DNA from: Candidatus Moranbacteria bacterium RIFOXYA12_FULL_35_19
Lineage (GTDB): Bacteria; Patescibacteriota; Minisyncoccia; Moranbacterales; UBA2206
DNA: 45,952 nt
Direction: 5' to 3'
Assembly (NCBI GenBank): GCA_001784805.1
Contig: MFSE01000010.1
Coordinates: 1-45,952, forward strand
Shown here: positions 32,465 through 35,178 of the stretch, in pieces
Numbering within the stretch: the first letter of the stretch is position 1
How the letters are laid out: every line of letters begins with the position of its first letter
Translations under genes and position numbers: made by a program
Notes under the pieces: generated by a model
The model's database searches: none
Told to the model about the DNA's origin: nothing
Seen by the model: the letters and a program-made list of their open reading frames with translations, nothing else

Positions 32465-32550
32465 TTTTATTTTATCCGCCCTGACGCCAATTAAAATTTA
32501 ATTAGAGCCAGAACTTAGATTCAAATCCTTGTTTTTATTTTCTTGAGATA

Positions 32551-32559
32551 ATTATACCA
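32551..32559 (-). promoter_or_regulatory. Extended -10 promoter of the pilus operon
   Basis: TGGTATAAT on the minus strand about 85 bases upstream of pilM. The -35 region is poor (TTGAAA at a 14-base offset), as usual for TGn-type promoters. It would drive pilM to the terminator at 18831. Confidence 0.65.
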
Positions 32560-32589
32560 CATTTTTTAATTTTCAACTATCCCCCAAAG

Positions 32590-32598
32590 TTATCCACA
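32590..32598 (+). other. Perfect DnaA-box-like 9-mer
   Basis: TTATCCACA in the intergenic region between divergent pilM and comF. Isolated; may be a DnaA regulatory site or chance. Confidence 0.35.
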
Positions 32599-32605
32599 GG
32601 GAGTC

Positions 32606-32690
32606 CTTACAAATTACGAATTTTTACGAATGTACTAATGTTATAATTAGTTATTCGTACATTCGTACGGTTTCGTAATTCATTCGTAAG
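32606..32690. repeat. B-family inverted repeat upstream of comF
   Basis: The left side begins CTTACAAATTACGAA and the right side ends TTCGTAATTCATTCGTAAG, with inner TACGAATGTACTAA/TTAGTTATTCGTACATTCGTA. Its right end is seven bases before the comF ATG. Confidence 0.78.
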
Positions 32691-32697
32691 GGAAAAG

Positions 32698-33483
32698 ATG
32701 TCTTTCAAAAAAATCAAAAACTTTATTCTCGACACTCTCTTTCCTATCCATTGTTTATATTGTCAAAAATACGGGGCGTGGATTTGTAAAGAATGTTTGG
32801 AAAAAATAAATATTCTTCCAATTCAAGTCTGCCCGTATTGTGAAAAAAATATTTCTCCCGCTGGTCGAATTTGCCCATTATGCAAAGATAAATTCTTAAG
32901 AAAGAATGAGACTTGGCCATTAGATGCTTTGATTGTGAGCGCAAAATACGAAAAAAATGGAATTTCTCGTCTTGTCCATTGTTTTAAATATAATTTTGTT
33001 TCAGATTTAGGCGCACCTTTAGCAGAAATAGTTTCCAAAGCCATTATTTTCCATAATCTTCCGTTGCCTGATTTTATTATTCCTATCCCCCTTCATTATC
33101 GACGTCTACGCTGGCGAGGTTTCAATCAAGGGGAAATCTTAGCTAATAATCTTTCCGAGATTTTAACCCCTAGCTTTCCCTTGTCAGTTATTTCTAATTT
33201 TCTTATTCGAAAAAAATATACCCCTGCCCAGATGAAAATAAAAAATTATAGCGAACGGAAAAAAAATGTTCGGGATATTTTTGGATTGAACCCCAATGTA
33301 GAGACGCAAAATATTGCATCTCAAAATTTTGCGTCTCTACAAAACAAAAATATTTTGTTAGTTGATGACATTTGCACTACAGGAGCTACTCTTTTTGAAG
33401 CGGGGAAAATTCTAAAATCCGCCGGCGCCAAAAAAGTCTTTGGCGCAGTAATCGCCCGACAAGAAATAAAAGTAAAAAAATAA
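32698..33483 (+). CDS. comF: ComF-family phosphoribosyltransferase
   Basis: 261 residues. The N-terminal double zinc finger has eight Cys (19, 22, 30, 33, 45, 48, 59, 62: CLYC, CKEC, CPYC, CPLC). The C-terminal PRTase domain has the PRPP-binding loop ILLVDDICTTGATL. Residues about 201-215 (VETQNIASQNFASLQ) are an extra stretch from a perfect-arm palindrome inserted just before that loop. ComF is a competence protein, and its position next to the pilus operon (divergent) fits natural transformation. The exact reaction in bacteria is not settled. Confidence 0.93.
   Translation: MSFKKIKNFILDTLFPIHCLYCQKYGAWICKECLEKINILPIQVCPYCEKNISPAGRICPLCKDKFLRKNETWPLDALIVSAKYEKNGISRLVHCFKYNFVSDLGAPLAEIVSKAIIFHNLPLPDFIIPIPLHYRRLRWRGFNQGEILANNLSEILTPSFPLSVISNFLIRKKYTPAQMKIKNYSERKKNVRDIFGLNPNVETQNIASQNFASLQNKNILLVDDICTTGATLFEAGKILKSAGAKKVFGAVIARQEIKVKK
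33298..33340. repeat. In-frame palindrome inside comF
   Basis: Perfect 15-base arms GTAGAGACGCAAAAT/ATTTTGCGTCTCTAC with a 13-base loop. It lies just before the PRPP-binding loop of the protein and encodes VETQNIASQNFASLQ. Confidence 0.9.
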
Positions 33484-33554
33484 AAAATGCATCATAATTT
33501 TACGGCCGTCGTATTATGATGTATTTTATCAATAAATTTTAAGTCTCCTTAATT

Positions 33555-33736
33555 TGGTCGGAGACCTGGGAATTGAACCCAGTCTACATCCACTTCACCC
33601 CGCACCATTTTTCTGTCGGAGTGTGGAGAATCGAACTCCAACTACAAGACCCCCAGCCTTGCGTACTGCCACTATACTACACTCCGATAAATGGTGCGGG
33701 GCACGTGGACGCGTACTGCCGGTATACTAGTCTCCG
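33555..33736 (-). tRNA. tRNA-like gene interrupted in the anticodon arm by an extended stem carrying tRNA-Pro
   Basis: 5' half: acceptor CGGAGAC, D arm GTATACCGGCAGTAC and anticodon-stem strand CGTCC. 3' half: GGATG, T arm CTGGGTTCAATTCCCAG, acceptor GTCTCCG, discriminator A and an encoded CCA. The acceptor pairs perfectly (7/7) and the anticodon stem pairs with one G-U. The anticodon loop is replaced by an inverted repeat (CCCCGCACCATTT/AAATGGTGCGGGG) that encloses a full tRNA-Pro gene. No anticodon can be read. Either a pseudogene or a functional tRNA scaffold; amino-acid identity unknown. Confidence 0.65.
33616..33686 (-). tRNA. tRNA-Pro (GGG), nested
   Basis: A 71-base cloverleaf with acceptor CGGAGTG/CACTCCG, discriminator A, D arm GTATAGTGGCAGTAC, anticodon loop CTGGGGG (anticodon GGG) and T arm GGAGTTCGATTCTCC. 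No encoded CCA. It lies entirely inside the interrupted tRNA at 33555-33736. Confidence 0.88.
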
Positions 33737-33787
33737 CTACCCGCCTCTTCAGCGGGTCGCCGATGAGGCGACTACACCCCGATAAAT
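33733..33787. repeat. tRNA 5' fragment with palindrome upstream of the interrupted tRNA
   Basis: On the minus strand ATTTATCGGGGTGTAGT repeats the flank and 5' end of the nested tRNA-Pro (ATTTATCGGAGTGTAGT). It is followed by the hairpin CGCCTCATCGGCG, then CCCGCTGAAGAGGCGGG, and then the interrupted tRNA. The gap 33484-33801 has no protein gene; it holds only these tRNA parts and palindromes. Confidence 0.7.
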
Positions 33788-33801
33788 ATCAATAAAAAAA
33801 A

Positions 33802-34401
33802 TTAAAGCCTTAGCAATCGTTCCAGTGTATCTACCATTCCCGGCTTATGCTCTTCTTCTGGATTATATTGCAAAAGAATTCTCCTGATCTCGGACGGATC
33901 TTGATCAGCGATAGGAATGTGAATGTAGGGCGCCAGATAGGATTGAGTGTGCAAACTGATGACACGCAAACCGTCTTCCTCATAGAAAATCCAAAAAGAA
34001 TTTATATTATCAAAACTATAAATTTCTCGCCCAGCCACCACGCCTTCACGCGTTATCATAAAATCCAAAACACGCGGTTCTTTGTTAATATAGATATAGC
34101 CAACCACTCCAAACAGAATAAAAACCACTGCCATTATGAGACTATTAGTGAAAACTGCATACGCAACAATCGCAATTAGGATAGCAGACATATATAAATA
34201 CCATTTGCGATCCCGCTCAAATATTTCAAATTCACTCGCACGCCAATGAAGCAAAACATCTTTGGAATATTTTTCAATCAGCATATCGTGCGGAGCTTCC
34301 AATTCAGAAAAATCATCCGGGGGTAAAAATTTTTGCGGTTCTTGATTTTCCAATAATTTTTCTTCCTGCTCTATTTGTTCTTTATTTTTTTGTATATACA
34401 T
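33802..34401 (-). CDS. Membrane protein with PH-like cytoplasmic domain, unknown function
   Basis: From ATG 34401 it has 199 residues (a TTG at 34416 is an alternative). An acidic N-terminal tail (EQIEQEEKLLENQEP) is followed by WRASEFEIFERDRKWYLY and two membrane segments (about 75-92 and 93-110: MSAILIAIVAYAVF, SLIMAVVFILFGVVGYIYI). The C-terminal part (MITREGVVAGREIYSFDNINSFWIFYEEDGLRVISL) resembles small PH/DUF5673-like domains. It ends with SEIRRILLQY and VDTLERLLRL. Not a named family to me; the pattern is of a conserved CPR membrane protein. Confidence 0.8.
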   Translation of the reverse strand: MYIQKNKEQIEQEEKLLENQEPQKFLPPDDFSELEAPHDMLIEKYSKDVLLHWRASEFEIFERDRKWYLYMSAILIAIVAYAVFTNSLIMAVVFILFGVVGYIYINKEPRVLDFMITREGVVAGREIYSFDNINSFWIFYEEDGLRVISLHTQSYLAPYIHIPIADQDPSEIRRILLQYNPEEEHKPGMVDTLERLLRL

Positions 34402-34542
34402 AAATTTATTAAACAATTTTTTTATTCGTAGATTCGCATGTCATTCGTAGTTTCGCATCGCGTTTATATAATAGCACAAAAAAATTTGCTTTCATAGCCA
34501 AGATGCGCTAAATTTGAAATAAGTTTAAATATAAGATATTAT

Positions 34543-34630
34543 GGTGAGGTACCGAAGTGGTCATAACGGGACGGTCTTGAAAACCGTTAGTCTCGCAAGG
34601 GGCACGTGGGTTCGAATCCCACCCTCACCG
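34543..34630 (+). tRNA. tRNA-Ser (TGA)
   Basis: Class II cloverleaf with acceptor GGTGAGG/CCTCACC, discriminator G, anticodon loop CTTGAAA (anticodon TGA), long variable arm and T arm GTGGGTTCGAATCCCAC. No encoded CCA. Confidence 0.94.
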
Positions 34631-34666
34631 CAAAAAAGAAAAAGGTAAAGTCTAAAGCGAAAACTT

Positions 34667-34945
34667 ATGAATTGCGTTTATATATTACGAAGTACAAAAA
34701 ATCAAAAATTTTATATTGGCTCAACAAACAATTTAAAAAGAAGAATTAAAGAACACTCGAAAGGAACAGGTTGTTTATACACTAGATTAAATGGCCCATG
34801 GATATTGATTTGTTTTAAAAAATGTTTTTCAATAAAAGAAGCTAGAATTGAAGAAAAGAAAATAAAATCCTACAAAGGTGGCAATGCTTTTAAAAATATT
34901 ATTTTTGGAAAGGTGGCTGAGTGGTCTAAAGCGGCACCGTGCTAA
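34667..34945 (+). CDS. Free-standing GIY-YIG endonuclease (UPF0213-like)
   Basis: 92 residues. GIY-YIG signature VYILRS...KFYIGST, the conserved Arg in NLKRRIKEH, and the catalytic-type Glu in EARIEEKKIK. The single small domain is typical of YhbQ/UPF0213 and homing-type nucleases. It lies between tRNA-Ser(TGA) and tRNA-Ser(GCT). Its last 13 codons (VAEWSKAAPC end) overlap the tRNA gene and the stop codon is in the anticodon loop. The C-terminus therefore comes from tRNA sequence, which suggests insertion or fusion next to the tRNA. Confidence 0.88.
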   Translation: MNCVYILRSTKNQKFYIGSTNNLKRRIKEHSKGTGCLYTRLNGPWILICFKKCFSIKEARIEEKKIKSYKGGNAFKNIIFGKVAEWSKAAPC

Positions 34946-34993
34946 GGTGTTGTCTGGGCAACCGGACCGTGGGTTCAAATCCCACCCTTTCCG
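34907..34993 (+). tRNA. tRNA-Ser (GCT)
   Basis: Class II cloverleaf with acceptor GGAAAGG/CCTTTCC, discriminator G, anticodon loop TGCTAAG (anticodon GCT), long variable arm and T arm GTGGGTTCAAATCCCAC. It overlaps the 3' end of the GIY-YIG gene by 39 bases. No encoded CCA. Confidence 0.94.
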
Positions 34994-35009
34994 CAAAGTT
35001 TAAAAAATA

Positions 35010-35119
35010 TTCAAGGTGGCTGAGCTTGCCCCGCCAAAGGCGGGGTGAAGTCTAAAGCGGCACCGTGCTAAGGTGTTGTCTGGGCAACCGGACCGTGGGT
35101 TCAAATCCCACCCTTTCCG
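35010..35119 (+). pseudogene. tRNA-Ser (GCT) duplicate with palindrome inserted in the D loop
   Basis: From TGGCTGAG onward it is identical to the upstream tRNA-Ser(GCT), except that 25 bases (35025-35049, arms CTTGCCCCGCC/GGCGGGGTGAAG) replace two bases of the D loop. The acceptor 5' strand is TTCAAGG instead of GGAAAGG, so only four of seven acceptor pairs remain. The anticodon, variable and T arms are intact. Probably a non-functional copy. Confidence 0.85.
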
Positions 35120-35178
35120 CCTTCGCTCGCAGTAGCGAGCTACGGCGGACAAAGTCCGCAAGGTAGCTTGCGAAGGCG
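35118..35178. repeat. Compound GC-rich palindrome after the tRNA-Ser copy
   Basis: The outer arms CGCCTTCGC/GCGAAGGCG enclose AGTAGCGAGCTAC/GTAGCTT-type pairing and the inner hairpin GCGGACAAAGTCCGC. The left arm starts inside the acceptor end of the copied tRNA. Confidence 0.82.

Follow-up and report, generated by a model that had tools for sequence, protein, structure and literature searches.

A complete tRNA-Pro gene nested in the anticodon loop of a tRNA-Pro-like gene, and similar tRNA-bearing cassettes in Patescibacteria

The DNA analyzed here (the window) is a stretch of 45,952 nucleotides from Candidatus Moranbacteria bacterium RIFOXYA12_FULL_35_19 (contig MFSE01000010.1). On its minus strand, positions 33736–33555 harbor a tRNA-Pro-like gene whose anticodon loop is split by a cassette, in which a 13-bp inverted repeat, CCCCGCACCATTT, flanks a complete tRNA-Pro(GGG) gene (Table 1). 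ARAGORN assigned 33686–33615 to tRNA-Pro(GGG), and this inner gene scored 57 bits against the Rfam tRNA model (gathering score 29); neither ARAGORN nor cmscan called the outer gene, the inner one alone being called. The 7-bp acceptor arm and the 5-bp T arm of the outer gene are intact, as is its encoded CCA, and its 5′ half stands ahead of its 3′ half, unlike in a permuted tRNA gene. The nest has a predicted fold of −86.1 kcal/mol, compared with −58.4 ± 4.1 for shuffled sequences (z −6.7; 0/200 as good). An earlier note on this DNA had described a tRNA-Pro nested in a tRNA-like gene with perfect outer acceptor and T arms and an encoded CCA, preceded by a partial 5′ end and two hairpins, and all of these features were borne out, the predicted fold having the shape that the note described. 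The stem beneath the inner tRNA, which the note gave as about 20 pairs, is made up of an outer anticodon stem of 8 bp and, beyond a small internal loop, a further 15 bp or so. A fuller version of the upstream 5′ fragment CGGGGTGTAG stands upstream of an ordinary tRNA-Pro(GGG) in G003, a genome of the same genus. No GIY-YIG ORF was found among the ORFs within 33555–33736, and no target-site duplication was found at this copy.

Table 1. Parts of the nested tRNA-Pro locus, with positions in the window.
Feature	Positions	Strand	Basis
Outer tRNA-Pro-like gene, 5′ part CGGAGACTAGTATACCGGCAGTACGCGTCCA (acceptor strand, D arm, 5′ anticodon stem)	33706–33736	−	Match to ordinary tRNA-Pro(GGG) of relatives
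Linker CGTG, in place of part of the outer anticodon loop	33702–33705	−	NNNG recurs here in other nests
Left inverted repeat CCCCGCACCATTT	33689–33701	−	Repeat recurs at other loci
Inner complete tRNA-Pro(GGG), the sole Pro(GGG) tRNA found in the genome	33615–33686	−	ARAGORN, Rfam
Right inverted repeat AAATGGTGCGGGG	33598–33610	−	Repeat recurs at other loci
Linker TGAA	33594–33597	−	Recurs in other nests
Outer gene, 3′ part GTGGATGTAGACTGGGTTCAATTCCCAGGTCTCCGACCA (3′ anticodon stem, T arm, acceptor strand, CCA)	33555–33593	−	Sequence, predicted fold
Older tRNA-Pro 5′ fragment CGGGGTGTAG (33781–33772), then hairpins (33771–33757 and 33756–33740)	33740–33781	−	

The adjoining gene, which encodes 204 aa and has no Pfam match, served as a synteny anchor in relatives. 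In G003 and in G016, a member of the same family, an outer-type tRNA-Pro(GGG), ordinary and without an insert, comes after this gene. The outer parts are identical to the ordinary genes of relatives at up to 57/67 positions and to their own inner gene at 44/67, and the inner gene matches genes from another genus of the same family at 65–67/72 positions. Two Pro(GGG) tRNA lineages thus meet at the nest. The TGGG residues of the ordinary anticodon loop are absent from the outer halves, so the two halves, if joined, would yield no Pro anticodon, and the inner gene is the only Pro(GGG) gene found in the genome (ARAGORN was run on the stretches with 41 Rfam tRNA matches).

Nests of this design recur. 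We searched for the pattern CCCCGCACCA...TGGTGCGGGG across the order (131 genomes) and in the named genome contigs, and most loci were collected through this one repeat pattern. Among the loci collected, the 10-bp repeat core bounds 138 distinct copies, 42 with a complete tRNA and 96 without (empty copies). Named loci came mainly from Patescibacteria (Moranbacteria, Portnoybacteria, Giovannonibacteria, Uhrbacteria, and others), with some outside this group. Flanks were scored by comparison with a set of 246 tRNAs, from which the inner one was left out, and set against shuffled controls, so that isotype was assigned by similarity and not by function. Outer tRNA halves scored above every shuffled control in 30 of the 42 tRNA-bearing cassettes; they shared the strand of the inner gene in all 30, and the isotype scored equaled the inner amino acid in 26/30, against a chance level of about 14% given the make-up of the 246-tRNA set. 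In two of the four disagreements (L105 and L172) the outer loops are Met-like by eye and the inner genes are Met, and the remaining two are ambiguous. Only 6/96 empty copies had tRNA-like flanks. The outer genes are broken in the anticodon, T, or D loop, and the same-tRNA-in-tRNA design was seen for about ten amino acids in related bacteria, including a triple nest of Ala-like genes in G040. The source genome itself holds further nests, of tRNA-Thr(CGT) on contig C18 (L002, 1476–1710) and of tRNA-Glu(CTC) on contig C23 (L211, about 1380–1540). About a dozen tRNA genes in the collected loci are flanked by related yet different repeats. In a phylum-wide sample, the strict tRNA-bearing pattern occurred in 4/380 genomes, the source genome among them, which implies that nests with the exact repeat are rare outside the order. 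A phage origin was rejected, as the tRNA-bearing pattern had no match in viral contigs.

The outer genes show different degrees of decay. A tRNA-Ser(TGA) is nested at one syntenic place in three genomes of the same genus, of which G005 retains an intact outer copy; that of G001 is interrupted by a hairpin in its D loop, and that of G003 is truncated. The inner gene is complete in each. Decay of the outer copy beside a complete inner gene is as expected of a displaced gene. The outer arms of the Pro nest and of the Glu nest are intact, which fits recent insertion and would also fit constraint.

At the Pro locus, the outer gene most probably represents a host gene that has been displaced, because relatives carry it uninterrupted, the inner gene is the sole Pro(GGG) found in the genome, and outer genes decay elsewhere. 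We consider it probable that a cassette with a different tRNA of the same isotype entered the anticodon loop of the host tRNA-Pro(GGG) gene and took over its job. Ordinary recombination between two close tRNA-Pro genes, through unequal exchange or template switching at inverted repeats and with no mobile element, could draw on same-isotype neighbors such as the Pro(GGG) and Pro(CGG) genes that lie 5 bp apart in G016, and the locus does contain further hairpins and fragments. This route is nonetheless unlikely, given that one repeat core bounds copies most of which hold no tRNA, 23 of these with 4-bp direct repeats, and that the inner and outer genes of nests belong mainly to diverged lineages and are not recent duplicates. 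Among the readings offered in the earlier note were a degenerate duplication, an insertion of intron-like kind, and a functional chimera. The insertion is upheld by the ordinary syntenic tRNA of relatives and by the recurrence of the repeat. A functional chimera, in which the outer cloverleaf and long stem are kept as a scaffold that stabilizes the inner tRNA or aids its processing, would agree with the strong predicted fold, with the intact outer arms and CCA, and with stem variants elsewhere that keep their pairing by paired changes (e.g. CCCCGTACCA with TGGTACGGGG in L024). We regard it as improbable: relatives manage with an ordinary gene in place of the outer one, an arrangement that the note itself had named as refuting, the anticodon-loop residues are lost, and outer copies elsewhere decay while the inner gene stays complete. 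Removal of the cassette from the RNA as an intron, to restore a working outer tRNA, is very improbable, for although tRNA introns are common in the anticodon loop, nests elsewhere interrupt the T or D loop and no intron family appears among the Rfam matches up to E = 1 in 32500–35000. Misassembly of separate tRNA genes could be suspected in a draft genome of 32 contigs, with the locus known from the assembled contig alone, but it is unlikely at this contig and hardly credible as an explanation, since the design recurs in many independent assemblies, including those of three other genomes of the genus, and in the Thr and Glu nests of the same genome.

The empty copies differ from the tRNA-bearing ones in their flanks. 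Perfect 4-bp direct repeats occur at 23/96 empty copies and at 0/44 tRNA-bearing copies, the latter number reflecting a looser length limit than that behind the 42 above. Most tRNA-bearing copies have TTCA to the left and CAAG to the right, or else NNNG and TGAA, which is the same arrangement on the opposite strand. Because the flanks differ, a single insertion mechanism for empty and tRNA-bearing copies is unsupported, and the two kinds may differ in how they move, if they move at all. Short GC-rich hairpins bearing the nest linkers are few (2/44 in the loci collected).

Several known systems resemble the nests in part. Like miniature inverted-repeat transposable elements (MITEs), the copies are about 100 bp long and share terminal inverted repeats, and the empty ones often have 4-bp direct repeats. 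No transposase partner with the same inverted repeats was found in the loci collected. Unlike MITEs, the tRNA-bearing copies lack a target duplication and are sited in tRNA genes of the same isotype. Integrative elements with tRNA attachment sites restore the end of the same gene through the att site and an integrase. A nest is likewise an insertion into a tRNA gene after which that tRNA is not lost, but it places a whole different tRNA in the loop, and the old gene is lost. Group I, group II, and archaeal-type tRNA introns differ in that the nests have no recognizable intron structure and removal would restore no functional anticodon loop. The rRNA genes of CPR bacteria contain insertions that are not introns, some of them short (<200 bp), and GIY-YIG genes occur in insertions matching no intron (PMC11270868). 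The bacterial group, the short inserts, and the GIY-YIG genes are shared with the nests; those insertions, however, sit in rRNA genes, and tRNA cargo goes unmentioned in the passages of that paper describing them (PMC11270868). Searching the literature for MITEs in the anticodon loops of tRNAs yielded no paper. Searches for nested tRNAs, or for palindromic elements within tRNA genes, listed no title or abstract that describes the design, with subscription papers outside their scope. The nests point to an undescribed kind of small mobile DNA.

Small GIY-YIG nuclease genes offer a lead to the agent. The nearest such ORF to the nest, at 34667–34945, lies between tRNA-Ser(TGA) and tRNA-Ser(GCT), and it takes its last codons from the 5′ half of tRNA-Ser(GCT). 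In the source genome 4/9 small GIY-YIG genes lie ≤50 bp from a tRNA, and with seven more genomes 22/37 lie ≤150 bp from one (expected about 2.4%), a modest sample in which the added genomes were picked blind to GIY-YIG gene position and some were known nest carriers. Several loci comprise a tRNA 5′ fragment, a nuclease gene, and a complete tRNA of the same isotype, in some cases with a 3′ fragment as well. L262 (Pro) and L289 (Tyr) show this order clearly; in L268 (Gln) all the pieces recur, but the nuclease follows the tRNA. Within the Tyr nest of L289 there is a GIY-YIG gene, and the nest ends in TTGGTGCGGGG-TGAA. At L270, in the source genome, a GIY-YIG ORF (1484–1760) is bounded by an inverted repeat of its own, CCCTGTTAAATAA/TTATTTAACAGGG, followed by TGAA, and a similar repeat surrounds the nested tRNA-Pro in L055. 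The stop codon of the L270 ORF, as read from the sequence, is the TGA of TGAA, a hint of common origin and nothing more. The number of nests per genome showed no clear correlation with the number of GIY-YIG genes. By inference, the small GIY-YIG nuclease family is a possible candidate for the agent behind the nests. A parallel is found in phages T4 and T6, whose SegB is a free-standing GIY-YIG homing endonuclease encoded beside tRNA genes; it cuts within tRNA genes and drives the copying of tRNA-bearing segments (PMC13096335, citing Brok-Volchanskaya 2008). The small GIY-YIG genes of these bacteria likewise adjoin tRNA genes. Unlike the Pro nest, SegB acts in phage tRNA arrays through homologous recombination, the passages on SegB describe no tRNA nested in a tRNA loop (PMC13096335), and the Pro nest, unlike the SegB element, has no nuclease gene. 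The parallel is a lead only, with cutting by the bacterial GIY-YIG proteins putative.

We hypothesize that displacement of the host tRNA-Pro(GGG) gene proceeded as follows. A cassette bounded by CCCCGCACCA would have carried a complete, different tRNA of the same isotype into the outer anticodon loop, in the same direction, so that a working Pro(GGG) tRNA was kept despite destruction of the host's own gene and the outer halves were free to decay. The promoter of the outer gene would drive transcription of the inner tRNA, and ordinary tRNA end processing would free it, plausibly by a putative release through RNase P and RNase Z. In a genome that has roughly a single gene for each anticodon, insertion into a tRNA loop would be lethal unless the insert supplied the same tRNA. 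Selection would then act as a filter, sparing same-isotype inserts aligned with the existing promoter while others are lost. Such a survival filter would account for the shared isotype and strand, for the divergence of the inner sequence, and for the subsequent decay of the outer halves. The cassettes may derive from small GIY-YIG homing elements, which would cut a tRNA gene and be copied, along with an intact tRNA, into the break. Weighing against the proposal as a whole are the lack of a nuclease gene in the Pro nest, the poor agreement between nests and GIY-YIG gene number per genome, the failure to find a transposase partner in the loci collected, and the absence from tRNA-bearing copies of the 4-bp direct repeats of empty ones. 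More tentatively, the nests could represent a distinct mobile DNA of Patescibacteria, driven by GIY-YIG nucleases, that enters the loops of hairpin-forming (mainly tRNA) genes, survives by bringing a tRNA of the same isotype, and displaces host tRNA genes one at a time. If true, this would show how the essential, mostly single-copy tRNA genes of very small genomes are invaded and replaced while the cell survives, would explain why tRNA loci in these bacteria are cluttered with fragments and hairpins, and would hint at what the numerous small GIY-YIG genes of Patescibacteria do. Both the rule of shared isotype and the preference for loops lend themselves to specific, inexpensive tests.

Other repeats and inserts were observed in the window and beyond. 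A second, 5′-truncated tRNA-Ser(GCT) (35014–35120) directly follows the intact copy at 34907–34994, and its D loop holds a 25-nt insert, CTTG-CCCCGCCAAAGGCGGGG-TGAA, bearing the linkers of the tRNA nests; in G002 (L216) an insert occupies the same place, and its loop contains a further hairpin. The palindrome GTAGAGACGCAAAATATTGCATCTCAAAATTTTGCGTCTCTAC lies in frame (33299–33343) in a comF-like phosphoribosyltransferase gene (32698–33483), and related repeats are present in the orthologous stretch of G006 and G005 (L214, L217). On a Parcubacteria contig (L188, 3458–6360), the apparent translation of TGGTGCGGGG is Ser-Gly-Ala-Gly, directly ahead of the conserved start of type IV pilin-like genes; the inverted repeat stands upstream, flanked on each side by TTTA, and between the pilin-like genes there are GIY-YIG ORFs.
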